A stretch of DNA of 64,000 nucleotides, taken from NCBI RefSeq assembly GCF_010550695.1, contig NZ_JAAGOB010000005.1, forward strand, positions 183,547 to 247,546, given 5' to 3'. Made by a program: the position numbers and the translations under genes. Positions 25,530 to 41,436 of the stretch are shown piece by piece (the stretch's first letter is position 1; each line of letters begins with the position of its first letter). The notes beneath the pieces were generated by a model. The model saw only the letters and a program-made list of their open reading frames with translations. It searched no databases and was not told the origin of the DNA. Source of the DNA: Phytoactinopolyspora alkaliphila. Lineage in GTDB: Bacteria; Actinomycetota; Actinomycetes; Jiangellales; Jiangellaceae.

Positions 25530-26444
25530 TCACGCCGATACCGCGTGGGACAGGCGTCGCCGGATGGAGTCAGCCGCCCTCTCGACGTCGACGCGAACGG
25601 CACGATGTACGCCGGCCGAGCCTGCGGATCGCTCGAGGACCCCGAGCCGCTCACCCTCCTCGATGACGGTCCAGCTACCTGCCTCCAGCGTGAACAGGTC
25701 GGGCTCGAGCATTGCCAGCACGGCAAGGGGATCGTGCGGACTGGATCCCGCTGTCTCCCTGAAGCGCCACCAGCCGCGGACCTGCTGGTCCACTAGGGTC
25801 GCCAACGGTGAGCCCGAGCGGGTGATCTCGTCGAGATCGGACTCGCTCAGGGCAACCGTCGTGGTCACGTCCAGCCCGACGAAGACGGACGGGATGCCCG
25901 ACGCGAGTACCGTCCGGGCCGCGGCGGCGTCACACCGGATGTTGTGCTCCGGCTCGCCGCGGGAGAACTCGCCGCCCATGACGACGAGCCTGCGCACCGC
26001 GTCCTTCCAGCCCGGGTCACGCTCCAGCGCGGCAGCGACGTTGGTGAGAGGACCGATGGCGACGACGGTCAGCTGCCCGGGATGTTGCCGGGTCGCTTCG
26101 ATCAGTGCGTCGACGCCTCCGAGCGGGCTGATCTCCTCGGCCTCCAGGTCGTCGATGCCCTGGCCCTCGTGGCCCGCCCACCAGACGTCGCGCCCGGACA
26201 GCGGGTCGGCCAGCCCCTCGTGCACCGGTACGTCGTCGCAGCCCATGAGGCGTAGAACCCGGTTGGCCATGCGCGCGCGGAGGGCGACGTCACCGTACAC
26301 CGTGGTGACACCACGGAGGTCGACGCGTGGATCATCGGCGAGAAGAATGAGGGCCAGCAGGTCGTCGACGTCCGAGCCGATGTCGGTGTCGAGCACCACC
26401 GGCCCGATCCCGTCTGCGGGCGGCGTGATCGGCGGTTGAGCCAT
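25530..26444 (-). CDS. Nucleoside hydrolase (IUNH family)
   Basis: A 304-aa enzyme with the calcium-binding signature DTDIGSDVDD near the start, AIGPLTNVAAAL, a VVMGGEFSRGEPEHNIRCDAAAA block and SPHDPLAVLAM near the end, all as in inosine-uridine preferring nucleoside hydrolases. It splits ribonucleosides into base and ribose. The start is the ATG at MAQPP, which has AGGAAGGA upstream; a longer frame adds 34 unsupported residues. The 331-bp gap upstream separates it from the divergent Gfo/Idh operon. Confidence 0.92.
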   Translation of the reverse strand: MAQPPITPPADGIGPVVLDTDIGSDVDDLLALILLADDPRVDLRGVTTVYGDVALRARMANRVLRLMGCDDVPVHEGLADPLSGRDVWWAGHEGQGIDDLEAEEISPLGGVDALIEATRQHPGQLTVVAIGPLTNVAAALERDPGWKDAVRRLVVMGGEFSRGEPEHNIRCDAAAARTVLASGIPSVFVGLDVTTTVALSESDLDEITRSGSPLATLVDQQVRGWWRFRETAGSSPHDPLAVLAMLEPDLFTLEAGSWTVIEEGERLGVLERSAGSAGVHRAVRVDVERAADSIRRRLSHAVSA

Positions 26445-26775
26445 GGACGTTCCTTCCTGGGTCGGCATCGCAGACGCGGAACCAGTATGTGCGGCATCGG
26501 GCTCCGGGTCGAGCGCTGCGTCTCTCACCGAAGTTAAATCGAGCACGGCGGAAGATAGGAGGAGCGGAGGTGGCGGCGCCGACCATATATTCGCATTTCA
26601 GAGACGTAGCGGAGGGCTGCGCATCGCCGCCATGCCGGGGTCTGTAGACGAATCGCACCGTGGGGATTGTGGGAGGGCATGTGACGCTCGATCGGCAGTA
26701 TCCGAGACCTGGGAGCGACGACGTCACGAAGCCTGACGACGTCACGAGTCACGACCGAGTCGCAAGGCCCGGACA
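26445..26775. promoter_or_regulatory. Divergent promoter region with direct repeats
   Basis: No gene seen. A 13-bp direct repeat GACGACGTCACGA occurs at 26717-26729 and 26735-26747, spaced 18 bp centre to centre, just before the Gfo/Idh start; each holds a GACGTC palindrome. It may be the operator of the glycan operon. Confidence 0.5.
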
Positions 26776-27846
26776 ATGAGCCCGGCTCCTCTGAAAGTCG
26801 GTGTGGTCGGCCTCGGCGAAGTAGCGCAGGTCGTCCATCTGCCTATCCTGTCGAGCCGTCCCGACCTGTTCGAGATCGCGGCGGTCTGTGACGTCTCGCC
26901 CAACCTGGTGTCCTTGCTTGGTGAGCGCTATGGCGTGCCAGGGCGCTACATCGACGCCGACTCGTTCATGGCCCATGATCTGGATGCGGTCATGGTGCTC
27001 ACCAGCGACGAGTACCACACCGACCTGGTCATCGCAGCGTGCCGCGCGGGCAAGCACGTGTTCGTGGAGAAGCCGATCTGCCTAAACCTCCGCGACGGAG
27101 AGGCGATCCTCAAAGAGAGGAACAACGCCGGTGTGCAGGTGATGGTGGGGTACATGCGCCGCTACGCTCCGGCGTTCCTGCAGGCCGTCGACGAGGTACG
27201 CAGCTGGGACGCCGTGAACCACGCGTCGCTGCGCGACATCATCGGCCAGAACCGTCTGCTGATCGACCAGAGCAGCGTGGTGGCCCGGTTCGACGTCCCG
27301 GCCGAGGTGGCCGCGGACCGGGACCGTCGCGCCCGGGAGCAGGTGGCCGAAGCCATCGGTGACGTCCCGTCGGATCTGGTGCGTGCCTACCGGATGCTGT
27401 GCGGCTTGGCGATACATGACATCTCGGCCATGCGGGAGATCCTCGGCTCTCCCGTGTCCGTCCGGGCGGCCGCCCAGTGGAGCGGCGGCGGGTTCATGAG
27501 CATCCTCTTCGACTACGGCACCTACTGCGCCAGTCTCGACGTCGGCGTCGACCTGCAGAAGCGATTCGACTGCCACATCGAGGTGGGCTCGGAGCTCAAG
27601 ACGATCAAGGTGCAGTACGACACTCCGTACATCAGGCACCTCCCCACCACATTGCACGTAGCCGAGACGGACGCGGAGGCGCACTCACAGATGATCGTGC
27701 GCCCGACGTTCAAGGACGCCTACGTGTTCGAGCTGGAGACGTTCCACGAGGTGGCGTCGAGCGGTCTCCAGCCGAAGACGGACATCGAGGACTCGTTACG
27801 CGACCTGGAGCTTTTTCAGCACGTCGTGGCCGCATTCCAGCGATAA
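26776..27846 (+). CDS. Gfo/Idh/MocA family oxidoreductase
   Basis: A 356-aa dehydrogenase with the Rossmann start KVGVVGLGEVAQVVHLP, then the family's EKPICLNLRDGEA block (Lys of the E-K-P motif is catalytic) and a C-terminal alpha/beta domain. It oxidises or epimerises a sugar or cyclitol with NAD(P). It is followed after 18 bp by a glycosidase-like gene, forming a two-gene operon. The substrate is unknown. Confidence 0.92.
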   Translation: MSPAPLKVGVVGLGEVAQVVHLPILSSRPDLFEIAAVCDVSPNLVSLLGERYGVPGRYIDADSFMAHDLDAVMVLTSDEYHTDLVIAACRAGKHVFVEKPICLNLRDGEAILKERNNAGVQVMVGYMRRYAPAFLQAVDEVRSWDAVNHASLRDIIGQNRLLIDQSSVVARFDVPAEVAADRDRRAREQVAEAIGDVPSDLVRAYRMLCGLAIHDISAMREILGSPVSVRAAAQWSGGGFMSILFDYGTYCASLDVGVDLQKRFDCHIEVGSELKTIKVQYDTPYIRHLPTTLHVAETDAEAHSQMIVRPTFKDAYVFELETFHEVASSGLQPKTDIEDSLRDLELFQHVVAAFQR

Positions 27847-27864
27847 CAGCAGAGGTGAGATCCG

Positions 27865-29964
27865 ATGGAACGCGGCGTGTACTTCGATGCCTGGTTTCCC
27901 CGCCAGCATTGCTATCACCCCAGTCTGCCGCCGCGGCGGCTGCGGATGGTGGACGATCTGGTCGACTACCGGGCGACCTTGCTGGTGTGGTCGGCGCTGG
28001 GCGGCGGTTCCCTGTCCTTGCCGTACCTGGAGCAGGAGGCGTTCGGCCCGGTCGACGCGCGGTCACGGTTCTACGGCTTCGTGAACGACAGCGAGTTCAT
28101 CGATGAGTGTCACACACACGGCATCAAGGTGTTCGGCATCGTCTTCGAAGCTCAGGGATGGGAGTTCCCGGTGGAGCTCAACGACTCCGAGGACACCGTC
28201 CTGGCCCTCAACGAACTGCGCGGCACCGGCCACCGTGACTGGATGGGGCTGCGGGAGTTCTCACAGAACCGCTACCCGAACCTGTGGAAGCCGCTCGAGG
28301 CGTACTTCCCCGGTGGGCTCGTCAACAGTGACGGGGAACCGGTCACCGACCTGATCGACGAGTGCTGTGCTCGGGACATCCACCAGGTGGCGTGCCACGC
28401 GCACTGGGTGGAGTGCCCGGACCGTGAGCACCAGTGCTACTACATGGACCGCAACAATCCGGTCTGGCGGGAGTACCTGAAGGCGGTGATCCGCATCCAG
28501 GTCGATGCCGGCGTCGACGGTGTCCAGCTGGACGAGGCGGAGCTTCCGATGGGGGCCCTACAGTACGGCGCATGCTTCTGCAAGGACTGCATGAAGGGTT
28601 TTCGCGCCTTCCTCCTGGAGCAGCCACCGGGGGAACGGAGCCCGGAGCTGGCCGGCGTGGACCTGGAGTCGTTTCATTACGGCGACTGGCTGCTGGAACG
28701 CGGCCACGACTTCAAGACCGACCAGCATCTGGCGCCGCTGTTCGACCTTTACCACCGCTTCCAGCGTGCCGCCGTCAAACGGTACTTCGGGGAGCTCGCG
28801 ACCTATGCGCGTGAGTACGGTCGCGAACAGGGCAGAGAGGTGCTCGTTTCGGGCAACTTCTTCAACCTGTACCCGCACTACTACGCGCTCGTGGACGACG
28901 TCGACCTCGTGATCACCGAGATGCGTAACACGACCTACCGGCAACCGGCCTGGTACCGGTACGTGGCCGGCTTCGCGGGCGACAAGGACGTGGTGGTGGT
29001 GGAGAACCCCTACGGCGGGGTGGTGCCGGAGCTCGTCGAGGCGCTGTCGAAGGGCCGCGGCCACGATCTGTTCCAGCTGTCGTTGTACGAGGGTGCCGCC
29101 ATGGGCGCCAACATGACCGTCCCGTACGGCGCGTGGATGGGCAGCCGGATCGAGGATTCCTTCTATGCGCCGCACGAGGTCGCCACCGAGGTGCAGAACT
29201 TCCTCGCCGACCACGACCGGCTGTTCAGCCGCCAGACGTACAACGACATCGCGGTGGCGTTCAGCACGGAGAGCAACGCCGGCCTGATCGCCGCGCAGGA
29301 CCGGAGCGACAACGTGCTCAACCTCTCCGACCACTCGGTGGAGGTTCCGTTCCGTGTGGTGACGACGGTGCTCGCCGACGCGGCGGTCCCGTACGACGTC
29401 GTCATGTTCCCCGACGGTTCCTACGCGCCGGACCGGGTCGACGCGCGCACGCTCGGCCGGTACTCGACCCTCGTATTGCCGAACTGCACGTGGATGACTG
29501 CCGGCCAGATGTCGGCCGTGCGTGGCTACCTTGAGAGCGGCGGGCGGGTCGTCGTCGTCGGCGAGTTCGCGACAGACGTGCCCACTCCCGGACGCGACGC
29601 GATCCTGGCGCATCCGAACACGACACGAGCCACGGCACGGGACGTGGCCGGACTGCTTCCCGTGGGCCGGCAGGTCGAGATCGCCGCCGATGTCGCTGTC
29701 AACATCCATCGCCTCGCCGACGACGTCGCCGCGGTGCACATCGTCAACTACGACTACGCATCCGAACTGGACCAGGTGGTGCCGAAGTTCGACGTCGACC
29801 TGATCATCCGGCTACCCAAGCAGGCCACGCACGCCACCCTGGTCCGGCCGGGCTCCGCGAACGTGGAACTCACGTGCGTGCCCAAACAGGGGGGTGTGCT
29901 GCTGCACATCGACGAGATCGGCCTCTACGGCGTGGTCGTGCTGCATGACGGCCGCTGGGCGTGA
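27865..29964 (+). CDS. Glycoside-hydrolase-like protein with C-terminal trimerisation domain, unclassified
   Basis: A 699-aa cytoplasmic protein with no signal peptide. The N-terminal two-thirds looks like a TIM barrel: DGVQLDEAELPMGALQYG ends with a candidate acid on the strand, and YGACFCKDCMKGFRAF carries the CxxC typical of GH42/GH-A-like and DUF4434-type proteins. The last third (residues about 470-620: AVAFSTESNAG ... LVLPNCTWMTAGQMSAVRGYLESGGRVVVVGEF) is the GATase-like beta-galactosidase trimerisation fold. Coupled with the Gfo/Idh gene. I cannot assign a GH family; an activity on an unusual glycoside is inferred. Confidence 0.75.
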   Translation: MERGVYFDAWFPRQHCYHPSLPPRRLRMVDDLVDYRATLLVWSALGGGSLSLPYLEQEAFGPVDARSRFYGFVNDSEFIDECHTHGIKVFGIVFEAQGWEFPVELNDSEDTVLALNELRGTGHRDWMGLREFSQNRYPNLWKPLEAYFPGGLVNSDGEPVTDLIDECCARDIHQVACHAHWVECPDREHQCYYMDRNNPVWREYLKAVIRIQVDAGVDGVQLDEAELPMGALQYGACFCKDCMKGFRAFLLEQPPGERSPELAGVDLESFHYGDWLLERGHDFKTDQHLAPLFDLYHRFQRAAVKRYFGELATYAREYGREQGREVLVSGNFFNLYPHYYALVDDVDLVITEMRNTTYRQPAWYRYVAGFAGDKDVVVVENPYGGVVPELVEALSKGRGHDLFQLSLYEGAAMGANMTVPYGAWMGSRIEDSFYAPHEVATEVQNFLADHDRLFSRQTYNDIAVAFSTESNAGLIAAQDRSDNVLNLSDHSVEVPFRVVTTVLADAAVPYDVVMFPDGSYAPDRVDARTLGRYSTLVLPNCTWMTAGQMSAVRGYLESGGRVVVVGEFATDVPTPGRDAILAHPNTTRATARDVAGLLPVGRQVEIAADVAVNIHRLADDVAAVHIVNYDYASELDQVVPKFDVDLIIRLPKQATHATLVRPGSANVELTCVPKQGGVLLHIDEIGLYGVVVLHDGRWA

Positions 29965-30011
29965 GCCGGACGGGTCCTGGGCGGGAGCCGGGCGGGGTCG
30001 TGTGCACAAAG

Positions 30012-30038
30012 GGGGCGCGGCCGTCATGGCCGCGCCCC
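30012..30038. terminator. Bidirectional terminator hairpin
   Basis: Perfect 11-bp arms GGGGCGCGGCC and GGCCGCGCCCC with a 5-nt loop, sitting between the converging 699-aa glycosidase gene and the GH10 gene. Confidence 0.85.
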
Positions 30039-30048
30039 GGGGGTCGGA

Positions 30049-31218
30049 TCACCAGATCGGCGTGCGTATCGGCGCGTTGAGCAAGGCGTTGCTTACCGCG
30101 TCATAGGCCGGCTTCGGCTGCAGGTCCGCGTCGAACGGCAGCGGCCTGCGGGGCGTGCCGTCCCGCCGCGGACGGTCCTCCTCCAGCCAGCTGTACCGGT
30201 CGGAGAGGCCGAAGTTCATCACCACCTTGACCGCGGGCTCGTCGAGCGCTACGTCGAGGTAGCGCGCGTACACGTCGGCGACGCCCGGGTCGATGGCGCT
30301 GCCGCGCAGTCCGTCGTCCAGGACATCCATCTCGGTGATCATGATCGGAAGACCACGCGCGGCGATCTCGGCGAGGAAGGCCCGGTACGCGCTCTGGTTG
30401 AATCGAGAGGCGAAGGACTTCGCCTCCAGGTGAGCCTGGATGCCGACGCCCTGCACCGGCACTCCCTGGCCCAGCAGATAGTCGATCGCCTGCAGGTAGG
30501 CAGCCCGCCGGTCCGCCGCCTCGGAGCGCCGTGACGATGTCTCGAATCCGAACTCGTTGATCAGCAGCAACGCGTCCGGGTCCTCCGCCTGGGCGAGGTG
30601 GAACGACTCCGCCACGTACGACGGGCCGATGGTGGCGTACCAGGGAACGCCGTCCCGCAGCATGTTGGCGTCGCTGTCGTAGGGATCGGTGACCTCGTTG
30701 GCTACGAGCCAGGTCTTCACCCGGCCCCGGTACCGGGCCACCATGGCCTGGATGGTGGGGAAGAGCGTGTCGCGTGCCTCCTGCTCAGACATACCCCACA
30801 GGTCATCGTCGGTCCATCCTTCACCGAACCCCTCGTCCCAGGCGAGATGGGCGGCGAAGACGTGCTGATTGTTGGCTTCCGCGTACGCGATGATCCGATC
30901 GGCGTGCGAGAAGTCCAGCGGGGAGCCCGGTGTCGGCTTCAGCCGCCACCAGAGCAGGTCGTCCTCAGTGAACATGATTCCCGCCTCGCGCTGGAACAGC
31001 GCGCTGTAGTCAGGATCCGGCTCCACCTGCCAGGTGGTGGTTGACGCGCCGTAGATGATTCCACGGCTCAGCGCCTGATCCCGCAACGGCGTTCCCGCGA
31101 GGCGGCGATACCCGGCGTTCGCGGCCGGGGCCGTGGACACACCGAGCGCGCCGGCAGCGGCTAGCCCGCCGGCACCCAAGAGCGCCGAACGACGCGTGAT
31201 TCTCCGGTCATTGCGCAT
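30049..31218 (-). CDS. GH10 endo-1,4-beta-xylanase, Tat-exported
   Basis: A 389-aa enzyme. The Tat signal peptide is clear (RRITRRSALLGAGGLAAAGALG, cleavage near ANAG). The GH10 barrel has the acid/base Glu175 in WLVANEVTD and the nucleophile Glu296 in ITEMDV, with GIQAHLE between. It would attack xylan outside the cell. The start is the ATG with AAGGGG upstream; a longer frame upstream adds 93 implausible residues. No xylan-binding module is present. It stands alone, transcribed toward the glycosidase gene. Confidence 0.93.
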   Translation of the reverse strand: MRNDRRITRRSALLGAGGLAAAGALGVSTAPAANAGYRRLAGTPLRDQALSRGIIYGASTTTWQVEPDPDYSALFQREAGIMFTEDDLLWWRLKPTPGSPLDFSHADRIIAYAEANNQHVFAAHLAWDEGFGEGWTDDDLWGMSEQEARDTLFPTIQAMVARYRGRVKTWLVANEVTDPYDSDANMLRDGVPWYATIGPSYVAESFHLAQAEDPDALLLINEFGFETSSRRSEAADRRAAYLQAIDYLLGQGVPVQGVGIQAHLEAKSFASRFNQSAYRAFLAEIAARGLPIMITEMDVLDDGLRGSAIDPGVADVYARYLDVALDEPAVKVVMNFGLSDRYSWLEEDRPRRDGTPRRPLPFDADLQPKPAYDAVSNALLNAPIRTPIW

Positions 31219-31574
31219 AGTTCCCCTTCCGGGTCGAACATGAGAGGGCTCGGCTCTGCGGCACGCAGGAGGTCGTCCGAATTCGTCGAACGACAGTGGC
31301 GATCGCACGGAGGATGATTCGACGTCTGCACAAGCGTAAGAATTCTCGGGCACCCGGCGCCGCGCCTTTGTTCGGCAGTAGTGGATGGAACTTCGGGAAC
31401 TCGACGTAGTTCTGCGGGGAGGGCCGGCCGGCCGCCGGGGGTAAGACAGCCCCAGCTTTCGTGCGTCTGGGTAGTGCCGCGGGGTGGCGCGGGGCACTAG
31501 ACTAACTGCGGCGTTGGAGAACTGTACCGACTAGCTAGTAATGGTGAACGGGTGAGGGCAATGGTTATCGTTTA
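31219..31574. other. Noncoding gap upstream of the GH10 gene
   Basis: About 356 bp. It must hold the GH10 promoter. A weak hairpin with 7-bp arms TAGTGCC and GGCACTA lies at 31472-31499. No convincing gene or known operator was seen. Confidence 0.4.
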
Positions 31575-31949
31575 ATGAATATGCGACCGTTGGTCACGGC
31601 GGCGCCTTGGTGTGCCCTTGTCAGTGGGTATCTGGCGGGCTTGCTGTACGTCTATCAAGTGTTCGTGGTGCTGATGGTGGGCAACGAGCCGCATTACCAG
31701 TGCTCTGAAGAGCGTTTTGGCATTTTCGAACCCCAGCGAGCGCCAGCAATGACGGGGCTGGAGAGCGGATATTTTCATCCGAAGGCGCTTTGTCAATGGG
31801 CCGACGGTGTCGTCGTCTCGATGATTCCGCGGGGTGTCGAGCACGCCTACGACGTGCTGTTCGTCGTCACCTGTGTCTCAGTCGCAGTTGCACTTGCCGG
31901 TGGGGTCGTGAGATTGAGGAGAAGACGACACGCATCGAAGTCTCGATGA
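31575..31949 (+). CDS. Small two-helix membrane protein, unknown
   Basis: A 124-aa protein with two hydrophobic segments (residues about 9-34, PWCALVSGYLAGLLYVYQVFVV split around Gly, and 92-112, VLFVVTCVSVAVALAGGVV) and a soluble loop between them holding two cysteines (YQC and KALCQWADG). The C-terminus is Arg-rich, so both ends are likely cytoplasmic and the Cys loop outside, possibly disulphide-bonded. No clear ribosome site; Met3 is an alternative start. AT content is a little higher than average. Function unknown. Confidence 0.6.
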   Translation: MNMRPLVTAAPWCALVSGYLAGLLYVYQVFVVLMVGNEPHYQCSEERFGIFEPQRAPAMTGLESGYFHPKALCQWADGVVVSMIPRGVEHAYDVLFVVTCVSVAVALAGGVVRLRRRRHASKSR

Positions 31950-31987
31950 AGAGTAATTTGCCCTGGACTCGATATCTATGGAGCTGC

Positions 31988-32962
31988 TCAGCCTTTGAGT
32001 CCGCTGAGGGAGATTCCCTTGATGAAATGGCGCTGGAAGATCATGAAAATGACGAGTACGGGAATGGTGGCGACCACCGAGCCCGCCATCAGCATGTCCC
32101 ACGCCGTCCGGTTCTTCACGACGAAGAGCGCGAGCCCCAGGGGCATCGTGTAGTGCTCAGGGCTGGAGATGATGATAAGCGGCCACAGAAAGTCCTCCCA
32201 CGCGTAGATGAACGTGAAGATCGCGGTCGCGGCCAGTGCGGGCCCGGAGAGCGGAAGTACCACGCGCCAGAAGACCCGGAACTCCCCGGCGCCGTCGACA
32301 CGTGCGGCGTCCAGCAGCTCGTCGGGAATCGTGAGCATGTATTGCCTGAGCAGGAAGATGCCGAAGGCGCTCACCGAGCCGGGAAGGATCAGTCCGTAGT
32401 AGGAATCCAGCCAGCCATGGCCGCCTTGCCCGAGGATGTCGTTGCCGCCGAAGAGCGGGATGTGCTTGAGGACCAGATAGTTCGGGATCAGGGTGATCTG
32501 CGGTGGCACCATCAAGGTGGCGAGGAAGAGCAGGAATATCGTGTCGCGACCCGGGAAGGTCCGCTTGGCGAACACATAGGCGGCCATGGCGTTGAAGAAC
32601 AGCTGCAGGACCGTGATGGAGCTGGCCACGAAGACGCTGTTGGCGAACCACCGAAGGACATCCGCGGATGCTCCGGACCTCGTGCTCTCCGTAGGGATCC
32701 CGAAGAACGTCTTGTAGTTGTCCAGAGTGGGGTCCTCGGGAATCCATTGCGGCGGCCACGAGAAGATGTCGCCCACGTGCTGGAACGACGCGCTGACGAG
32801 CCACGCGAACGGTGCCACGAAGAGCAGGGCGCCGGGCACCAGGATCGCGTAGGCCAGCAGGACCGGCAGCGAGCGCCGGCCGCGGCCCTGGCCAGAACCG
32901 GTCCGGCGGTCGGCGGACCCGGCACGGCCGCGGACTCTCAACGCACCGAGGGGAGAGGTCAC
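31988..32962 (-). CDS. Carbohydrate ABC transporter permease (MalG type)
   Basis: A 324-aa permease with six membrane helices and the EAA loop DELLDAARVDGAGEFRVFWRVVLPLSGPALA, which docks the ATPase. C-terminal helix ends in FMIFQRHFIKGISLSGLKG, the usual MalG tail. The GTG start overlaps the stop of the first permease by 4 bp (GTGA). With the neighbouring permease and binding protein it forms a CUT1 importer; no ATPase gene is present, so a shared MsiK-type ATPase elsewhere is expected. Confidence 0.93.
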   Translation of the reverse strand: MTSPLGALRVRGRAGSADRRTGSGQGRGRRSLPVLLAYAILVPGALLFVAPFAWLVSASFQHVGDIFSWPPQWIPEDPTLDNYKTFFGIPTESTRSGASADVLRWFANSVFVASSITVLQLFFNAMAAYVFAKRTFPGRDTIFLLFLATLMVPPQITLIPNYLVLKHIPLFGGNDILGQGGHGWLDSYYGLILPGSVSAFGIFLLRQYMLTIPDELLDAARVDGAGEFRVFWRVVLPLSGPALAATAIFTFIYAWEDFLWPLIIISSPEHYTMPLGLALFVVKNRTAWDMLMAGSVVATIPVLVIFMIFQRHFIKGISLSGLKG

Positions 32963-33939
32963 TCGTATGCCCTTCGGTAGAGGCGGAGTTGCAGGAGCGT
33001 GAAGACGAAAAGCATCGCGAACAGTGCGTAGGCGAGCGTGCTCGCGTATCCCATCTCGTAGAACTTGAAGGCCGCCTCGTAGATGTAGAACATCATCGTG
33101 GTGGTGCGATCGACCGGGCCGCCCTGCGTCATGACGAAGATCTGCGTGAAGATCTGGAACGAACCGATGATCCCCATCACCATGAGGAACAGCGTGGCCG
33201 GCCGGAGCATGGGAATGGTCACATACCGCAGCCGTGCCCACGCGCCGGCGCCGTCGACCTTGGCGGCGTCGTAGAGCTCTTCCGGCACGGCCTGCAGCGC
33301 GGCGAGGTACACCACCATCGAGAAGCCGACGCCGGCCCACACACTCATCAGAATGATCGAGGGCATGGCCAGGTTCTTGTCGGCGAGCCAGAGCAGCGGC
33401 TCTTCGATCAGGTTCGCCTTCAGAAGGTAATAGTTGAAGAGCCCGAAATCGCCGTTGTACAGCCACTTCCAGATGATGGCGACGACGACGAACGGGGTCA
33501 CCACCGGAAGGAAGTACATGACCCGCAGGATGCCGCGTGCCCGCAAGGGCTGATTGAGCAGCAGCGCGACGACGAGCCCGACCATCATGGTCAGTGGGAC
33601 GGAGGCTCCGGTGAAATACGCCGTGTTGTAGACCGAGCGGCGGAAGCGCTCGTCGTCGAGCAGATCCCGGTAGTTGCCCAGCCCGACGAACGGCTTGTCG
33701 GGCTGGATGATGCTCCACTCGTGGAACGTCAGGTAGAACGCGAAACCCAGCGCGAAAAGGGTGAACACGGAGAACAGCAGAAGCCCGGGCGCCAGGAAGA
33801 GGTACGCGTCCCAACTGCGCGCCATCCGCCACAGCGTGCGGCGCCAGCCCTTGGCCGGCCGCTGGCCGGCTGCCCAGGGTCGCGCGCGCCCGGACGTCCG
33901 GTCCGGGCGCGCACCGACGTTCGTTCTCATCGTCCTCAT
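32959..33939 (-). CDS. Carbohydrate ABC transporter permease (MalF type)
   Basis: A 326-aa inner-membrane permease with six helices and the EAA loop EELYDAAKVDGAGAWARLRYVTIPMLRPATL. The N-terminal 40 residues are basic and cytoplasmic. It pairs with the MalG-type permease downstream and is coupled to the binding-protein gene upstream by an ATGA overlap. Confidence 0.93.
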   Translation of the reverse strand: MRTMRTNVGARPDRTSGRARPWAAGQRPAKGWRRTLWRMARSWDAYLFLAPGLLLFSVFTLFALGFAFYLTFHEWSIIQPDKPFVGLGNYRDLLDDERFRRSVYNTAYFTGASVPLTMMVGLVVALLLNQPLRARGILRVMYFLPVVTPFVVVAIIWKWLYNGDFGLFNYYLLKANLIEEPLLWLADKNLAMPSIILMSVWAGVGFSMVVYLAALQAVPEELYDAAKVDGAGAWARLRYVTIPMLRPATLFLMVMGIIGSFQIFTQIFVMTQGGPVDRTTTMMFYIYEAAFKFYEMGYASTLAYALFAMLFVFTLLQLRLYRRAYE

Positions 33940-35246
33940 TCAGCGAGGATCTGGTTCGCCGCCTCGGCGGCCGCGTCGACCGCCTCGGCGCCGGTCTTCT
34001 CGCCGTAGATCGCCTTCCCAAGCTCCTCGTTGAGGGTCTCTTCCACCTCTGCCCACTTGGGATTGTGGATGACGTTGCCCTTGCCGCAGGTCATCGCCTC
34101 AGCGAAGCCTTCGAGAACGGGCTTCGCCTCGATCAGTTCCGGCGAGTCGAGCAGGCTCTGGTACGGCGGGAGGAGTGTGCCCTCGGACTCGAAGGTCCAC
34201 TCGGCGACGTTGTCGGGATGACCGAGGAACTCGATCCATGTCCACGCCGCGTCGGCGTTCTCGGTTCCGGCGAAGATGACCAGGGCGTCCCCGGCGATGG
34301 TGGTGGCACAGCCCGCGTCCCCCTCCGGCAACGGAGCGGTGGCCCACTTGTCGGAGATGTCCGGGAACTCTTCGTCCAGAACACCGGCGAACCAGGCACC
34401 TGCCATGTACATGGCCACCTGGCCATTGGCGAAGGCGATGCGCCCGTCGTAGGAGTTCGAGTTGAGGTGGTCCGGAGCGGAGACGTCGGCCAGCCCGGCG
34501 TACAGCTCCGCGGCAGCCTTACCGGCGTCGGAGTTGAACTCGACGGTCGACCCGTCCTCACTGAGCAGTTCACCCCCGGCCTGCCACAGCCACGGATACC
34601 AGTAATAGGCCGCCTCGGGTGCGAAGATCTGGTAGCCGTACTGTTGCTCACCTGGCTTGGTCAATGTCTCCGCCGCGTCCTGGAACTGTTCCCACGTGGT
34701 GGGCGGGCCTTCGATTCCGGCCTCGTCGAACAGATCGGTCCGATAGAACAGCCCGGTGGACTCTCCGTCGAAGGGCAGGCCGTAGAAGCTGTCTTCGTAG
34801 CTGGCGAAGGCCCTGAACGCCTCGACGTAATCGTCCGGAACGATCGCGTCGCTGTGCTCGAGGTAGCCGTCCAGATTGACCAGAGCATCGCGTGACGCGA
34901 AGGTCACGACATCACTGGCGTCGACATAGGCCACGTCCGGCGGGTTGCCGCCGGCAATCTGCGTGGTCAGCTTCTGTCGTGCCTGCTCTGCGGGCACGTC
35001 ATGGAACTCGACCGTGATGTTCGGGTGTTCCTCCTGGAACTTCTCGTACAGCCGCTGCATGCCTTCCTCGGAGCCTACCCAGGACGAGAAAGTGATCGTC
35101 ACGGGTTCGTCCGGTTCCTCGACAGGTCCGGCCGCACCGGGTTCGTCGGCCTGGCCGCCATCAGAGCCACAGTTCACCGCAGCCGCCGACAACATGACGG
35201 CAATGCCGAGCGTCATTGCTCGGCGACGTACAGATTTCTGCCTCAC
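33936..35246 (-). CDS. Sugar ABC transporter substrate-binding lipoprotein
   Basis: About 436 aa from a GTG with a strong GGAGG box. A Tat/Sec-like charged start and hydrophobic stretch lead to the lipobox AAVNC, so the protein is a membrane-anchored lipoprotein. The mature part has the family-1 solute-binding layout: VTITFSSWVGSEEGMQRLYEKF, then GGNPPDVAYVDASDVVTFA and YGLPFDGESTGLFYRTDLFDEAG. It is the first gene of the three-gene importer operon. Substrate is probably an oligosaccharide of the surrounding glycan locus. Confidence 0.92.
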   Translation of the reverse strand: MRQKSVRRRAMTLGIAVMLSAAAVNCGSDGGQADEPGAAGPVEEPDEPVTITFSSWVGSEEGMQRLYEKFQEEHPNITVEFHDVPAEQARQKLTTQIAGGNPPDVAYVDASDVVTFASRDALVNLDGYLEHSDAIVPDDYVEAFRAFASYEDSFYGLPFDGESTGLFYRTDLFDEAGIEGPPTTWEQFQDAAETLTKPGEQQYGYQIFAPEAAYYWYPWLWQAGGELLSEDGSTVEFNSDAGKAAAELYAGLADVSAPDHLNSNSYDGRIAFANGQVAMYMAGAWFAGVLDEEFPDISDKWATAPLPEGDAGCATTIAGDALVIFAGTENADAAWTWIEFLGHPDNVAEWTFESEGTLLPPYQSLLDSPELIEAKPVLEGFAEAMTCGKGNVIHNPKWAEVEETLNEELGKAIYGEKTGAEAVDAAAEAANQILAE

Positions 35247-35551
35247 TTTGCCTCCTGGTTCGTCGGGCGCACGCTTGCGGCATGGCCAGACGCGGACGCC
35301 AGAGTGCTCGGCCATGGCCACGTCTTGCCAGGAGAATAACGGGGTTCAGCCACTCGATATCAGGGTGCGAGCCAAACCCCCAAACATAGATCGAGGAGAG
35401 CGGAAAATAAGTCGAGCAGGTCGCCGCACGGCTGTCCTAGTGTCCGTAACCGGGGCAGTCGCGCTGAGACCGGCGCGCCTCACGAACAGGTGGTCACGGC
35501 GGCAGGAACAGCCTGTTCGCACGGCGCCCAGTGGAAAGAAGGAGACTATAG
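35247..35551. other. Divergent promoter gap, importer versus PhyH-GH13 operon
   Basis: About 305 bp between two divergent operons that probably respond to the same sugar. No gene seen. The PhyH gene has a good AGAAGGAG box. I did not find a copy of the LacI-type palindrome of the 40.4-kb region here. Confidence 0.45.
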
Positions 35552-36283
35552 ATGCGACAGCTATCGTCGGAAGAAGTCGAGGCGTTCCGGAAGAACGGAT
35601 ACCTACTCCACAACGAGCAACTGTTCTCCGCCGAAAAGTTCGACCGCCTGTCGGACATCTTCGCCGAGCATCTCGCGGACAAGGGCGAGAAGCTCAGCGA
35701 CGAACTCGACACACCGCACTTCCGGGACCCACGCCTGCTCGAGTTCCTCCTCGCCGACGAGGTACTGGATCTCGTTGAGCCGCTGATCGGACCGAATATC
35801 GCCTTGTGGTCGAGCCATTTCATCTCCAAGGAGCCACACACCGGGCGGGCGACGCCATGGCATGAGGACTCCGCCTACTGGGAGGGACGGTTGAGCGCCT
35901 ACGACCGGATCGTGACGGTATGGCTCTCCCTCGACGGCAGCGACCGGGAGAACGGCTGCATGCGCGTCATCCCGGGCACCCACTCGAACGGATTCTCGGA
36001 GTATTCGCCTGTGGACCAGTCGGTGAATACGTTCCACGCCGAGATCGTCGATGTCGACGAGTCGAAGGGCGTGGACTTCGAACTCAAGCCCGGCGAGTGC
36101 TCACTGCATGACGGCCGCATCATCCACGGCGCTCATGCCAACACCAGCTCGCGGCGGCGAACCGGCTACACGATGCGGTACTTCCCGACGTCCGTGCGGG
36201 TGTACCCCGAGAAGAACCCGGGCTGGAAGATCTGGCTCGGCCGAGGTGCCGACGAGGCCGGCAACGTATACGCCAACGCCTGA
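35552..36283 (+). CDS. Phytanoyl-CoA dioxygenase (PhyH) family protein
   Basis: A 243-aa non-haem iron/2-oxoglutarate-dependent oxygenase. The iron triad appears as the His-x-Asp of TPWHEDSAYW and a distal His in LHDGRIIHGAHANTS; the Arg of RRRTGYTMRYFP binds 2-oxoglutarate. Members hydroxylate small molecules, including compatible solutes and secondary metabolites. It is the first gene of an operon with GH13 and an MDR dehydrogenase, so a modified sugar or sugar-linked compound is a likely substrate. Confidence 0.9.
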   Translation: MRQLSSEEVEAFRKNGYLLHNEQLFSAEKFDRLSDIFAEHLADKGEKLSDELDTPHFRDPRLLEFLLADEVLDLVEPLIGPNIALWSSHFISKEPHTGRATPWHEDSAYWEGRLSAYDRIVTVWLSLDGSDRENGCMRVIPGTHSNGFSEYSPVDQSVNTFHAEIVDVDESKGVDFELKPGECSLHDGRIIHGAHANTSSRRRTGYTMRYFPTSVRVYPEKNPGWKIWLGRGADEAGNVYANA

Positions 36284-36299
36284 CGGGTCGAGGGCTTCA

Positions 36300-38270
36300 G
36301 TGGCGAGGGCGTCAGCTGGGTCTGATCCAGCCGGGCGGCCTGATCCAGCCGGGCAGTGGGATCCCGCCGGGCGGGTGGATCGGGCGGAAGCGGACGTGGT
36401 CTGGGAACAGTGTGACGGCGACGTGTGGGCGTGGAGCAAGAGGGTCGCCGGCAGCAGCGCCGCACACGACGTGCTGGCCCTGCGAGTGCGGGGCAAGGAG
36501 TTCCCAGTGACCAGGTCGGACCGGCGGTTCTGGGCCACGGTGCCGTTGGCGCCGGGCACCAACGCGGTCGAGGCTGTCACCTCGGACTCCTCCGGTCGCC
36601 GAACGGTGGGAACGGTCATGTACGAGGTCCCGCTCCGGGCAGCGCCGACCGCCCGGATCGGCATCGCCGTGACGAGCGGGCAGGTTGTCCTGGACGCGGC
36701 CGGCAGCACACCGAACATGTCCACACGTGCGCCGCTGGCAGAATGCTACTGGTCCGAACGGGACAGCAACCCGGCCCGGCTGCCGTTGCTGGGCGCGCAG
36801 GCCGCCGGCGCCGGGAACGTCGTCAGGGGCAGCACCATACGGATCACTCCTCCCACGGTTGATGGGGAGTATTACGTGCGCTTGCGTGTGGTCGACGAGT
36901 ACGGCGAGGAAGACTGCGCGACGACGTCCTTCGCCGTGGTGGAGGGCCGGCCGCGGATACCCGATCACGACGTGGAGGCTCCGCGCTGGATCCGGGACGC
37001 GCTCGTCTACGGGGTGCTTCCGGCCCGATTCGGCGAGCCGCCCCTGAAGTCCACGATCGCCAGGCTGGATTACCTCAGCGACCTGGGAGTAAACACGTTG
37101 TGGATCGCGCCGGCGACCGCGACGATCCCGCGGCATGCCGGCTACGACGTCGTCGACTATTTCTCGATCCGCGAGGACTACGGCACTGAGGAAGATTTCC
37201 GCGAGCTGGTCGTCCAGGCGCACTCCCGCGGCATGCGGGTGCTCATGGACGTCGTCCCCAATCACACCTCCGAGCTGCACCGGTACTATCAGGACGCGCT
37301 GGGACGGGGCCGGCGATCCGTGCATTGGCACCTGTACCACCGGGACCGCTCGGGAAATGCCACCCACTACTTCGACTGGGTTCACCTTCCCAACCTGGAC
37401 TTCGGCAATCCGGAGGTGCGCACGTTCGTCACTGAGGCGCTGTCGTTCTGGATCCGCGAGTACGACGTGGACGGTTATCGGGTGGACGCGGCCTGGGGCA
37501 TCAAGGAGCGCGGGCCGGACTTCTGGCCCCAGCTGCGCCGCGAGCTCAAGCGGATCAAGCCGGACGTCTTCCTACTGGCCGAAGCGAGCGCCCGGGATCC
37601 CTACTATGCCGGCAACGGCTTCGACGCCGCGTACGACTGGAACCACGACCTGGGTCATTGGGCGTGGGAAGACGTGTGGGTCTCGCCAGACGGTCTGGTC
37701 GAGCGGTTACACGCCGCGCTGACGAACAACGGATCGGGATACCCGGCCGGCTCACTGGTCTTCCGATTCCTCAACAACAACGACACCGGTGAACGCTTCG
37801 TCGTCCGGCACGGCCCGGGACTGACCCGGGTGGCGGCGGCCCTGATGGTCACCGTGCCTGGCATACCCGGCGCGTACACGGGCGACGAGATCGGCGCCGA
37901 CTATCACCCGTATGCCGGCACACAGCCGCTGGGCTGGGACGACGACCCGTTCCGGCTACGGGCCTACTACACCGGGTTGTTCAGGCTCCGGCAGGAACTG
38001 CAGAATCTGCGCACGGGCGGTTTCGCCCGGCTCGAGGCGGAACCCCAGGACAAGGTCTACGCCTACCTGCGATGGTCCGACGACGCTGTGCCGGTAGCGG
38101 TCGTCCTGAACTGGCACGACGAGCCCGTCAGGGCGAATGTGACACTCCCGTCACGCTTCCCGCCCGGCACCGAGGTGACAGACCGGCTTCACGGCGGCCG
38201 GTTCACCGCTTCGGACGGAGTACTGATGGTCGACCTCCCGGCTTACACGGCACGGATACTCTCACCATGA
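36300..38270 (+). CDS. GH13 family alpha-amylase-like glycosidase
   Basis: About 656 aa from a GTG 16 bp after the PhyH stop; the frame is open further upstream but that part overlaps PhyH. Two N-terminal beta domains (about residues 30-230) precede the barrel. GH13 regions are intact: I DVVPNHTS, II GYRVDAAWG with nucleophile Asp396, III LLAEAS with acid Glu428, IV FLNNND. N-terminal domains and GVLPARFG resemble neopullulanase/cyclomaltodextrinase or maltogenic enzymes. No signal peptide, so it works on imported oligosaccharides. Near the start, DPAG is repeated four times. ATGA overlap with the next gene. Confidence 0.92.
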   Translation: MARASAGSDPAGRPDPAGQWDPAGRVDRAEADVVWEQCDGDVWAWSKRVAGSSAAHDVLALRVRGKEFPVTRSDRRFWATVPLAPGTNAVEAVTSDSSGRRTVGTVMYEVPLRAAPTARIGIAVTSGQVVLDAAGSTPNMSTRAPLAECYWSERDSNPARLPLLGAQAAGAGNVVRGSTIRITPPTVDGEYYVRLRVVDEYGEEDCATTSFAVVEGRPRIPDHDVEAPRWIRDALVYGVLPARFGEPPLKSTIARLDYLSDLGVNTLWIAPATATIPRHAGYDVVDYFSIREDYGTEEDFRELVVQAHSRGMRVLMDVVPNHTSELHRYYQDALGRGRRSVHWHLYHRDRSGNATHYFDWVHLPNLDFGNPEVRTFVTEALSFWIREYDVDGYRVDAAWGIKERGPDFWPQLRRELKRIKPDVFLLAEASARDPYYAGNGFDAAYDWNHDLGHWAWEDVWVSPDGLVERLHAALTNNGSGYPAGSLVFRFLNNNDTGERFVVRHGPGLTRVAAALMVTVPGIPGAYTGDEIGADYHPYAGTQPLGWDDDPFRLRAYYTGLFRLRQELQNLRTGGFARLEAEPQDKVYAYLRWSDDAVPVAVVLNWHDEPVRANVTLPSRFPPGTEVTDRLHGGRFTASDGVLMVDLPAYTARILSP

Positions 38271-39247
38271 CCGCGACTGACGATACGAGGCGTCCCATGA
38301 AGCTCGCTGCCCTGAAAGCGCCCTTCACGTTCGAGCTCCTCGACGAGCCGGTGCCGGCAGTCGCACCGGACGAGGTGCTGGTCCGCGTGGAGGTGTGCGG
38401 CGTATGCACGTCGGAACTGGATGCCTGGCAGGGTCGGGGAGACACACCTCTCCCGTACTTTCCGGGCCACGAGGTCAGCGGTGTCGTCGAGGAACTGGGT
38501 ACCGAGGTGACATCGGTGTCCGTCGGCGATCCGGTGGCCGTCTGGGTCACTGAGCGCGGCTTCGCCGAGTACGTGGCCGTCAAAGCCGAGCACTGCTTTC
38601 CGGCTGGTGGCGTCCCGCTCGACCTCGCCCTGGCCGAGCCTCTCGCCTGCGCGGTGAATGCCGTGGAGCTCGCCGACGTGTGTCTGGGGGACGACGTCGT
38701 CCTGATCGGCGCCGGTTTCATGGGCCACCTGGTTCAACAGCTGGTGATGTTGCGCGGTGTCCGCCACGTGATCGTCGCCGACACCCGCCCGGACGTTCTG
38801 GAACGGGCTCTCCGGCTCGGCGCCACCCATGTCGTCGACGTCGGGGTGGAGTCGTTGCCCGCCGTCGTGGCCGACATCACCGACGGCGCCGGCGCAGACG
38901 TCAGTTTCGAGATCACCGGAGCTCAGGGCCCGCTCGGCGTACTCGGCGACGTGACCAGGATGAGCGGGAAGATCGCCCTGGTCGGTTTCCACCAGGGGGA
39001 GAACCGGCAGCTTCCGCTCGGCCAGTGGAACTGGAAGGCCTTTACCCTTGTCAACGCCCATTTCCGTGAGGTGCCGACCATCCTGCGGGGCATGTCGGTG
39101 GGCATGCGGTTGCTCAGGTCGCGGCGGTTGTCTCTGGACGGCCTGGTCACACACCGGGTCGAGCTGGCCGACATCGGGGACGCGTTTGGGCTCGCGCAAG
39201 ACAAGCCCGCCGGTTTCGTGAAAGCGGTTGTGACCTGCTCACGCTGA
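38267..39247 (+). CDS. Medium-chain zinc-type alcohol/sorbitol dehydrogenase
   Basis: A 326-aa MDR enzyme. Catalytic zinc ligands are Cys48-like CGVCTSEL and the GHEVSG histidine-glutamate pair; the NAD fold is VVLIGAGFMGHLVQQL. The four-Cys structural zinc lobe is absent, as in some polyol/sugar dehydrogenases (short MDR members). The ATG overlaps the GH13 stop by 4 bp. Its 3' end overlaps the convergent lacI gene by 9 bp. It probably oxidises a sugar alcohol or sugar of this locus. Confidence 0.9.
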   Translation: MTATDDTRRPMKLAALKAPFTFELLDEPVPAVAPDEVLVRVEVCGVCTSELDAWQGRGDTPLPYFPGHEVSGVVEELGTEVTSVSVGDPVAVWVTERGFAEYVAVKAEHCFPAGGVPLDLALAEPLACAVNAVELADVCLGDDVVLIGAGFMGHLVQQLVMLRGVRHVIVADTRPDVLERALRLGATHVVDVGVESLPAVVADITDGAGADVSFEITGAQGPLGVLGDVTRMSGKIALVGFHQGENRQLPLGQWNWKAFTLVNAHFREVPTILRGMSVGMRLLRSRRLSLDGLVTHRVELADIGDAFGLAQDKPAGFVKAVVTCSR

Positions 39248-40291
39248 CTGGCGTTCCACGAGGCGACACGGCAGCAGGACCGTGCGCCGGGCGCCTGTTC
39301 GTTCGTCGCCGATCCGGCTGAGCAGGAGATCGCCGGCCGCGTTGCCGGCGTCGTAGGCTGGATTGGTCACTGTCGTGAGCGGGGGAGTCACGAGTGACGC
39401 CGCCTCGATGTCGTCGAAGCCGACGAGCGCGATGTCGTCGGGAACCGACAAACCGCGTTCCCGGATGACATCCATGGCGCCGATGGCCATCAGATCGTTG
39501 GCGCAGAACACGGCGTCGGGAGCTGGCTGCCGGGTCAGCAGTTCCCGCATGGCGTCCCGGCCACCCTGCCGCGTCCACTGGCCGGGCAACGTCAGGTCTT
39601 CCCGGAATTCCAGGCCGGCATCGAGGAGTGCGTTCCGGTAGCCCGCGGTCCGGGCGACACCGGAGTCGACGGTGCCCTTGATCATGGCCACCCGGCGTGC
39701 CCCCCGTTCGATGAGATACGACGTGGCCAGCCGAGAACCCTCCTCGTCGTCGGCGGCGACGACATCCACCTCGGGGTGGTCGATGCTCCCGCCGATGCAG
39801 ACGAACGGGGTGCCCAGCCGCACCGGCTCGGCAACCTGGCCCGTGACGACGTGTTCAGACGCCATGGCGACACCGTCGACACCCCGGTCCAGCACGTCCT
39901 GCAGGTACTTCTCTTCCCTGTCCACCAGGGCGTCGGTGTTGCAGATGTAGGTGCCGTACCCGGCGTCGTTCACCGTGTCCGCGAGCCCGCGGGCGAGAGC
40001 GGTGTAGAAGGGGTTCATGATGTCCGGCACGATCACGGCGATCATGTGGGACCGCTTGGTACGAAGATTGCGTGCCACGAAGCTCGGCCGGTAGCCCAGC
40101 TCGCGGACGGCCTGGTGCACTCGTTCCGCCGTGATCGCGGAGACCCGCCGGTTGCCGGAGAGCACATGGGAGACCGTCGTCGGGCTCACTCGCGCGGCGT
40201 GGGCTACCTGCGCGATAGTGACTCGGCCCGGATCCGGGCGCTTGCCCTCGGTGCGCTCGTCCGCGGACGTTCTGTCAGATGTGGGCATCAC
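39239..40291 (-). CDS. LacI-family transcriptional regulator of the glycan locus
   Basis: A 350-aa repressor: HTH and hinge VTIAQVAHAARVSPTTVSHVLSGNRRVSAITAERVHQAVRELGYRPSFVARNLRTKRS, then the periplasmic-binding-like effector domain ending in a GFDDIEAASLVTPPLTTV block. It is divergent from an AraC-type gene, and palindromes between them fit its operator. Expected to control the PhyH-GH13-MDR and importer operons. Confidence 0.93.
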   Translation of the reverse strand: MMPTSDRTSADERTEGKRPDPGRVTIAQVAHAARVSPTTVSHVLSGNRRVSAITAERVHQAVRELGYRPSFVARNLRTKRSHMIAVIVPDIMNPFYTALARGLADTVNDAGYGTYICNTDALVDREEKYLQDVLDRGVDGVAMASEHVVTGQVAEPVRLGTPFVCIGGSIDHPEVDVVAADDEEGSRLATSYLIERGARRVAMIKGTVDSGVARTAGYRNALLDAGLEFREDLTLPGQWTRQGGRDAMRELLTRQPAPDAVFCANDLMAIGAMDVIRERGLSVPDDIALVGFDDIEAASLVTPPLTTVTNPAYDAGNAAGDLLLSRIGDERTGARRTVLLPCRLVERQSA

Positions 40292-40353
40292 ATCTCGTCC
40301 CCTTCATCCCTGGCAGCCGGTGTCGCGGGACCCGCGGTAGGGCTCTTGACAGC

Positions 40354-40402
40354 TATGAAGCCGGTTCATAAGCTAGCACAAATCGGTTGCCAAATCGATT
40401 TG
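40354..40402. promoter_or_regulatory. LacI-type operators between lacI and araC
   Basis: Two palindromes lie in the divergent gap. One is TATGAA-GCCGG-TTCATA (40354-40370). The other is perfect, CAAATCGATTTG (40391-40402), with the central CG typical of LacI sites; a partial CAAATCGG copy precedes it at 40379. Confidence 0.65.
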
Positions 40403-40515
40403 TACTCCTGTTGCGGCGCCGACGCCGCTGTTCGCGACAGGACGCGCACGGTGCTCCTGGGCGGCGTCGAGGAGCCGCCCGGGCCGGGTGGCTCCCGCAG
40501 AGGGAGGCGAGCTCG

Positions 40516-41436
40516 GTGACCACGCCTACGCTGGAGCGCTACACCCGGGACCAGTTCCTCGTGCCGGAGGCACAGATCCGCATCTTGCAGCAACAGGTGC
40601 ATCGGGCAGGAGTCCACTGGCACGAGTTCTACGAGCTTGTCTATGTGGTCGACGGAACGGCGAGCCACGTCGTCAACGGAGCACGGCACCGGCTCGCTCC
40701 GGGCAGCGCGTTCATTCTGACGCCGGCGGATTTCCACGAGATCGTGACCACCCCCGGAGAAGTGCTCGTGTGTTACAACGTGATCATCGATCCGGCTGCT
40801 CTGGACGGCGAACTCGAAGGCCTGGTGCCACCGGCCGACGCCGAGTCGGTCTGGATGGTGGATGATTTCACCGAAGCACGCGCCGACTTCGAGCGGCTCT
40901 GGGACGAGTCGCAATCCGAGCGCCCGGGGACGGCCGTGGTCATGTATGCCCTTCTTCAGTGCGTACTGATCGCGCTCGCCCGGCGGTGCAGCGCCAACCG
41001 TTCCGGGTACGACGACGCTCTGCCGAAAGAGACCGATGCCGGTATCCGCCGGGCGATTCTCTACGTGGACCAGCACTTCCGTGAACCGTTGACCCTCGCC
41101 GGCGTCGCCGCTCAGGCCCATCTGTCGCCGAACTACTTCAGCGAGCGTTTTCACGAGACGACCGGGGTCTCGTTCCAGACCTACCTGCAGCGCCGGCGGC
41201 TCCGATTTGCGCGGTCTCTCCTGGCCGCGACCAATCTGGGCGTGACCGAGGTGTGCCATGCGGCCGGCTTCAACAGCCTCTCGCACTTCGGACGTTCGTA
41301 TCGCCGCAGATACGGCCATTCGCCCTCCGTCGGCAGAACCCAGCGCGCGGGGGTCCAGGATGGTAGCGGCGGCTGGGCAGCGGACACGACCCCGTGGCGG
41401 CTGGGCGGGCGGGACGAGGCGCTCGTCGCCGGGTGA
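40516..41436 (+). CDS. AraC-family transcriptional regulator
   Basis: A 306-aa activator from a GTG with AGGGAGG upstream. The N-terminal half is a cupin-like sensor (HWHEFYELVYVVDGTASHVV ... PGSAFILTPADFHEI). The C-terminal half has the double HTH: REPLTLAGVAAQAHLSPNYFSERFHETTGVSFQTYLQRRRLRFAR and VTEVCHAAGFNSLSHFGRSYRRRYGHSPS. The last 40 residues are a weakly conserved tail. Faces away from lacI and shares its regulatory gap. Confidence 0.92.
   Translation: MTTPTLERYTRDQFLVPEAQIRILQQQVHRAGVHWHEFYELVYVVDGTASHVVNGARHRLAPGSAFILTPADFHEIVTTPGEVLVCYNVIIDPAALDGELEGLVPPADAESVWMVDDFTEARADFERLWDESQSERPGTAVVMYALLQCVLIALARRCSANRSGYDDALPKETDAGIRRAILYVDQHFREPLTLAGVAAQAHLSPNYFSERFHETTGVSFQTYLQRRRLRFARSLLAATNLGVTEVCHAAGFNSLSHFGRSYRRRYGHSPSVGRTQRAGVQDGSGGWAADTTPWRLGGRDEALVAG

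Follow-up and report, generated by a model that had tools for sequence, protein, structure and literature searches.

In enzymes of glycoside hydrolase (GH) family GH42, barrel strand 4 ends in an Asn-Glu motif that provides the acid/base residue. Two further families are relevant here: in GH96, the D994 and E1129 mutants of the alpha-agarase Cm-AGA are inactive according to PMC11311870, which also cites other work in which Asp779 and Asp781 were essential in the GH96 enzyme AgaE, and in GH151 the nucleophile D154 lies at strand 4 and the acid/base E235 at strand 6 (PMC10154630). For the splitting of glycosides by oxidation and elimination, the precedent in PMC10628242 uses Mn-dependent sugar-isomerase-like enzymes. 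Here we describe two adjacent genes from Phytoactinopolyspora alkaliphila, contained in a window (the whole stretch of DNA analysed) of 64,000 nt from contig NZ_JAAGOB010000005.1 (GCF_010550695.1, positions 183,547-247,546, forward strand). P1 encodes a Gfo/Idh/MocA-type dehydrogenase and P2 a 699-aa glycosidase-like protein; both genes lie on the + strand, separated by 18 bases.

P2 looks like a real, conserved glycoside hydrolase that belongs to no classified family but whose architecture is known, rather than a source of new bond-breaking chemistry. We lean, with modest confidence, towards the reading that it represents an undescribed family of ordinary glycoside hydrolases, shares the GH42/GH96/GH151 plan and acts by acid/base hydrolysis on a probably alpha-linked sugar. 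Read in this way, P2 adds a well-conserved family to the GH42/GH96/GH151 group, with two named residues to mutate.

Fold, relatives and distribution of P2

None of 24736 Pfam models matched P2 above its cut-off (the best was DUF4350, E 0.075) and none of 18950 NCBIfam models matched at E <= 1. A single-sequence phmmer search of the PDB retrieved no relative, only the CGTase 1cyg over the strand-4 stretch at E 0.81 (0.28 in a second search). An earlier note on this DNA had stated that P2 has no assignable GH family, and this is borne out for Pfam and NCBIfam, where no clear membership in a characterised GH family was found; no publication describing P2 or its gene cluster was recognised among the open-licence papers that the searches listed.

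The predicted structure of P2 is of high confidence (mean predicted local distance difference test score, pLDDT, 93.6; predicted template modelling score, pTM, 0.93) and comprises a complete triosephosphate isomerase (TIM) barrel, a Rossmann-like domain and a beta-sandwich, in agreement with its earlier description as glycosidase-like with a TIM-barrel part. The top VIA-align match was the GH96 alpha-agarase Cm-AGA (9m0b) at Z 24.5 (545 residues aligned, root-mean-square deviation, rmsd, 3.1), 5 above the next match, the GH151 alpha-L-fucosidase ALfuk2 (6tvk; Z 19.1, 508 aligned, rmsd 3.8), and GH42 structures scored between Z 17.5 and 18.9, the best of them over 531 residues at rmsd 3.7. Foldseek likewise placed 9m0b first, followed by 6tvk and GH42. 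The comparison with GH42 that the earlier note had proposed therefore found the three-domain fold of that family in P2, with GH96 nearer than GH42. GH66, GH164, GH167 and a Novosphingobium rhamnosidase also appear in the structure lists, all below GH96. Two matches from a viral fold library at E <= 0.001 were rejected, the TM-score on the length of P2 being at most 0.22 for both.

Homology to GH96 extends to the sequence level when the family is searched as a whole. A profile of 48 homologues, chosen from the 67 available sequences (66 loci and the window) by omitting fragments and near relatives of the rows kept, matched 9m0b at a whole-sequence E of 3e-12, GH42 at 3.8e-4 and weaker, and 6tvk over the middle domain only (E 0.072). 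The likeness to Cm-AGA covers the full-length fold of the catalytic core; however, P2 is only 14% identical to 9m0b and by itself gives no phmmer match to it at E <= 5, and the CBM6 and TSP-3 parts described for Cm-AGA in PMC11311870 are not found in P2 by Pfam. ALfuk2 shares with P2 a TIM barrel, a Rossmann domain and a C-terminal domain, together with an Asp at strand 4 and a Glu at strand 6, whereas its sequence similarity is confined to the middle domain.

The GH42 beta-galactosidase/alpha-L-arabinopyranosidase structures (5xb7, 3tts) resemble P2 in domain order, in a trimerisation-type middle domain and in a Glu at strand 7, but P2 lacks the Asn-Glu motif and does not reach the Pfam family Glyco_hydro_42, which 4 of the 48 homologues match at E <= 0.1 (best 5.2e-4). 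The GATase-like trimerisation domain that had been proposed for P2 finds structural support, as the model can be aligned with GH42 structures from one end to the other, while its sequence signal is weak: of the 48 homologues, 21 match Glyco_hydro_42M at E <= 0.1, the best of them at 3.3e-5, and P2 itself does not.

A species-genome scan located P2 homologues at 66 loci in five phyla, which by record titles and taxonomy are Actinomycetota, Bacillota (hosts including Cohnella, Paenibacillus and Ruminiclostridium), Chloroflexota, Spirochaetota (Treponema) and Verrucomicrobiota (one metagenome-assembled genome). Among 60 related genomes, 7 contain a match to P2 at E <= 1e-3, which in 6 of them spans nearly the full length, and P2 is rare across its own phylum when this is sampled evenly (2 of 296 genomes at E <= 1e-30, the window's own included). 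The genome of the window holds one copy. Pairs of divergent copies were observed in Jiangella asiatica (loci L040 and L053, both without P1), in Microlunatus flavus (L031 and L063, one with P1 and one without) and in genome G020 (no P1). A GH78 alpha-L-rhamnosidase gene directly follows P2 in Ruminiclostridium and Treponema (L065, called by Pfam scan, and L066, L067 and L073, called by membership of gene cluster 27), and a GH106 gene lies close to P2 in L033.

Conserved residues and the predicted active site of P2

Thirty-seven columns do not vary across the alignment of 48 homologues; they include W42, W99, W181, D223, E224, C237, C242, N331, E352, E409 and W424. By DSSP of the model, with strand numbering of our own, strand 4 (219-223) ends on D223, strand 5 (327-333) contains N331, strand 6 (348-352) ends on E352, and E380 follows strand 7 (375-379). 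A predicted pocket lacking catalytic carboxylates, which the earlier note had named as evidence against its reading, was not seen, as invariant carboxylates stand at the ends of barrel strands.

The 48-homologue profile sets D223 on chain index 323 of 9m0b. Because an index offset of +671 is the only one of 80 tried that places the published D994, D1004 and E1113 on matching acids, D223 is equated with the catalytic D994 of Cm-AGA. For E352, the strand position and the spacing (129 residues, against 135 in Cm-AGA) are compatible with E1129 as the counterpart; the alignment, including that obtained with a narrower profile, ends before E352. D223 and E352 also end the same strands as D154 and E235 of GH151, a match at the level of position only. 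We therefore predict D223 and E352 as the catalytic pair.

The cysteines that the earlier note had recorded as CxxC are real, though the motif is C-x-C-x-x-C, with C237, C239 and C242 kept in 48, 47 and 48 of the 48 homologues. The motif occurs in some GH42 members as in P2, and the P2 family could be aligned over it with 4oif, 3tts and 1kwg; it is not in the aligned stretch of 9m0b.

Association of P2 with P1 and the competing readings

P1 matches PF01408 at E 5.5e-22 (79.2 bits against a cut-off of 24), and its model has a pLDDT of 92.0. K99 (of the EKP motif), H214 and D215 are invariant in an alignment of 28 P1 orthologues. Its structural matches include 1,5-anhydrofructose reductase, levoglucosan dehydrogenase, DgpA, inositol dehydrogenases and NAD-dependent sulfoquinovosidases, and the 50 VIA-align entries listed are tied at Z 30.7-33.6. 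Levoglucosan dehydrogenase (6a3i), DgpA (7xr9) and a sulfoquinovosidase (8qc6) share the fold of P1 (Z 31.1-32.7) and its EKP lysine, but are only 15-19% identical to it. Because no match stands out among these tied functions, structure does not fix the substrate of P1 or the position that it oxidises, and we drew no substrate from it. The best sequence matches include the C-glycoside oxidoreductases DgpA and DgpA1, over the N-terminal half only.

Orthologues of P1 occur at 35 of the 66 P2 loci, whereas 20 loci whose flanks are both 5 kb or longer contain no Gfo/Idh BLAST match at E <= 1e-5; the remaining 11, which lack a match and have a short flank, were set aside. On a P2 tree of 48 rows, built by a quick method with SH-aLRT (Shimodaira-Hasegawa-like approximate likelihood ratio test) support only, the presence of P1 changes twice over the 42 scored rows (6 having no P1 state) and lies in two separate clades, one in Actinomycetota and one in Paenibacillaceae. 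All 5 of the 60 related genomes that carry P1 (E <= 1e-60) also carry P2. A comparison of neighbouring genes over the 52 loci of at least 15 kb, with a threshold of 40% identity for the PhyH-type dioxygenase and the alcohol dehydrogenase (ADH), found PhyH at 28 of 32 P1-bearing loci and at none of the 20 without P1. ADH was found at 27 of 32 and 1 of 20, a contrast that is overstated because the identity threshold favours window-like relatives, the ADH cluster reaching 42 loci, some of them P1-free. AP_endonuc_2 was present at 19 of 32 against 0 of 20, and ThuA at 19 of 32 against 1 of 20. These counts of loci, tree changes and co-occurring genes argue for a genuine partnership of P1 with P2 in two lineages, and the set of P1, PhyH, ADH and P2 is kept in both Actinomycetota and Paenibacillaceae. 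Both open reading frames (ORFs) are as the earlier note gave them, and the pairing that it proposed appears genuine.

Two further genes were observed in these neighbourhoods. A protein of about 400 aa (gene cluster 12; L016:16409-17614) follows the ABC (ATP-binding cassette) permeases in 17 of the 66 loci; neither Pfam (at E <= 1e-4) nor NCBIfam (at E <= 1e-10) has a model that matches it. An amine-oxidase (DAO) gene is found in 6 P1-bearing loci of Paenibacillaceae, directly before P2 in L044 (6838-7995), a hint that the substrate might carry an amino or N-methyl group. We rejected an aminocyclitol or N-methyl substrate as a proposal, however, as DAO accompanies P1 in 6 of 32 long loci, too thin a basis.

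On the simplest view, hydrolysis is the task of P2, and its product is what the redox enzymes work on. An ABC importer would bring an oligosaccharide or glycoside into the cell, where P2, which is probably cytoplasmic because it has no evident signal sequence, would most likely cleave an alpha-linked, perhaps L-configured, sugar from it in the manner of GH96 and GH151. D223 would serve as nucleophile or base and E352 as acid or acid/base, and the sugar or aglycone set free would in all likelihood be handled further by P1, the PhyH dioxygenase and ADH. Several points weigh against this account. An identity of 14% to 9m0b does not fix a substrate; the GH96 catalytic assignment is itself not settled, because the work on AgaE names two other Asp residues; the equivalence of E352 and E1129 has strand position and similar spacing as its whole basis; E224 and E380, the latter kept in 45 of 48 homologues, could instead form a GH42-like pair; and the P1-linked module suggests redox chemistry, which a hydrolase leaves downstream. 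That Gfo/Idh recurs with PhyH in two lineages far apart suggests a sugar whose breakdown requires both oxidation and hydrolysis. It is possible, though we hold it only tentatively, that P1, PhyH, ADH and P2 form an undescribed route that oxidises and hydroxylates an unusual glycoside, such as an O-methyl or deoxy sugar derivative, with P2 founding a specialised hydrolase family. The identity of the substrate would explain why the cluster recurs in soil actinobacteria and Paenibacillaceae.

A stronger role for the dehydrogenase, in which the glycoside is oxidised by P1 while still intact (at C3, for instance), P2 or an adjacent AP_endonuc_2 enzyme cleaves the resulting keto-glycoside by elimination or hydrolysis, and ADH or P1 reduces the product, seems to us unlikely, even if it may apply where P1 is present. 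The co-occurrence of P1 and P2 in two clades, the presence of AP_endonuc_2 and ThuA at P1-bearing loci, a ThuA homologue on another contig of the window's genome (57% identity, E 2.4e-73) and the matches of P1 to DgpA and DgpA1 all speak for it. However, the 20 loci at which P2 has no Gfo/Idh gene nearby retain the same P2 carboxylates, and a comparison of 23 P1-bearing with 19 P1-free rows revealed no P1-linked change at these residues: a P1-specific change in the active site was rejected as a candidate, since, at the thresholds used, only columns 231, 271, 429, 556, 563 and 598 separate the two sets and none is a carboxylate. The metal-dependent AP_endonuc-type eliminase of DgpA/OGE-type deglycosylation was also not found by Pfam among the 10 window genes around P2, the genome's best match to the AP_endonuc_2 protein of L016 being 33% identical and on another contig, and the structural matches of P1 are spread over many Gfo/Idh functions. 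Cleavage by oxidation and elimination, which the earlier note had brought to mind for the pair, thus finds little support, given the hydrolase-type arrangement of Asp (strand 4) and Glu (strand 6) in P2, the loci without Gfo/Idh and the lack of a P1-linked change at these residues.

Quite unlikely in our judgement is a GH42-like beta-glycosidase of clan GH-A type, in which E380 would be the nucleophile and the acid/base would be E224 or a residue close to it, although hhalign against 17 GH42 rows gave a probability of 97.1 (E 5.8e-11) and set E380 on the LMEH glutamate of GH42, which we take to be the nucleophile of that family, in keeping with structure entries described as 'nucleophile mutant E324A'. 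The shared cysteine motif and the GH42 Z-scores favour the same view. The Asn-Glu seen in 16 of the 17 GH42 rows (the 17th is a shorter piece) is, however, Asp-Glu in all 48 members of the P2 family, followed by A, C, T, S, P, F or Y; E380 is replaced by F or Q in 3 of the 48; and the nearest structure is from GH96. Because of the loss of E380 in these rows and the replacement of Asn-Glu, the GH96/GH151-like pair of D223 and E352 is favoured. It is very improbable that P2 is not a glycosidase at all and instead uses the scaffold of one to bind carbohydrate or to act as a transferase or in the manner of a lyase: no tested activity was found for the family and the glucosyltransferase 7vkx is a near relative in the structure list, yet the carboxylates and the aromatic residues W42, W99, W181 and W424 are invariant, and ABC importers and, in some loci, GH10, GH13, GH78 or GH106 genes stand alongside P2.

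The repeat before P1 and the surrounding genes

The functional unit is larger than P1 and P2, and we read the region from about 25530 to 41436 as one sugar-use locus (Table 1).

Table 1. Positions of the genes, codons and DNA motifs discussed in the text.
Feature	Position in window	Strand	Remarks
IU_nuc_hydro nucleoside hydrolase-like gene	25530-26546	-	PF01156, E 4.4e-57; divergent from P1
Tandem pair of 18-base units with an exact 13-mer in common	26717-26752		23 bases before the P1 start codon
P1, Gfo/Idh/MocA-type NAD(P)-dependent dehydrogenase	26776-27846	+	356 aa; PF01408
P2, glycoside hydrolase of unclassified family	27865-29964	+	699 aa; predicted catalytic D223 and E352
D223-E224 codons of P2	28531-28536	+	End of barrel strand 4; invariant, 48/48
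C237-x-C239-x-x-C242 motif of P2	28573-28590	+	Like C-x-C-x-x-C of some GH42 enzymes
E352 codon of P2	28918-28920	+	End of barrel strand 6; predicted acid or acid/base; invariant, 48/48
E380 codon of P2	29002-29004	+	Just after barrel strand 7; aligned with GH42 nucleophile position; 45/48
GH10 gene	30049-31497	-	PF00331, E 1.7e-55
Sugar ABC importer, 2 permeases and solute-binding protein	31988-35321	-	PF00528 (x2), PF01547
PhyH-type dioxygenase	35552-36283	+	PF05721, E 3.6e-33; presumed iron motif H-x-D (WHEDS)
GH13-type gene	36375-38270	+	PF00128, E 2.4e-42 (on longer ORF 36051-38270)
Medium-chain alcohol dehydrogenase (ADH)	38297-39247	+	PF08240 and PF00107 (on longer ORF 38072-39247)
LacI-family regulator	39239-40291	-	PF00356
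LacI-like palindrome CCAAATCGATTTGT	40390-40403		Gap between LacI and AraC-type genes
AraC-type regulator	40516-41436	+	Similarity to gene cluster 9 of other loci

The position at which the earlier note began the operon, 26717, is the start of the repeat; the first gene begins at 26776. The 13-mer GACGACGTCACGA is present exactly at 26717-26729 and 26735-26747, the copies lying 18 bases apart. Two exact 13-mers this close are unusual, and a role in control is unproved. Allowing <=3 mismatches, the pair occurs once in the 5.5-Mb genome and a reversed control pattern not at all; with <=2 mismatches allowed, the 13-mer shows no clear enrichment across the window (11 occurrences against 6.15 expected, 6 of 100 shuffles being as high). 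The dedicated control that had been proposed from this repeat is left unsupported: visual inspection of 401 bases upstream of the nearest orthologue (L010) did not reveal the repeat, and as a shared operator it was rejected, since the P1 upstream region has no 16-mer at <=2 mismatches in common with any of the LacI/AraC, solute-binding protein/PhyH and PhyH/GH13 gaps. At 3 mismatches, a single GC-rich stretch was the only match between the P1 upstream region and these gaps. The LacI/AraC gap instead holds a LacI-like palindrome, CAAATCGATTTG.

Among the neighbouring genes, the nearest NCBIfam model to the PhyH-type gene is 'chlorinating enzyme', with a score far below its cut-off; we take the H-x-D of its product to be the iron motif. 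NCBIfam models of alpha-amylase type match the GH13-type gene, all below their cut-offs. Its likely orthologues are confined to L035 (61%) and L033 (42%), both truncated by the end of the locus, and 8 further GH13 matches at 24-28% identity were rejected as the same gene. The AraC-type call rests on a cluster 9 member, L016:12104-12955, which matches HTH_18 and AraC_binding in Pfam.

Elsewhere in the window, a separate GH42 gene at 57369-59423, whose product aligned with another GH42 and is without the C-x-C-x-x-C motif, sits upstream of an ABC permease gene at 60824-62434. ARAGORN detected 3 tRNA genes in the window (7796-7883, 44437-44526 and 54417-54508), all for tRNA-Ser and with 3 different anticodons.

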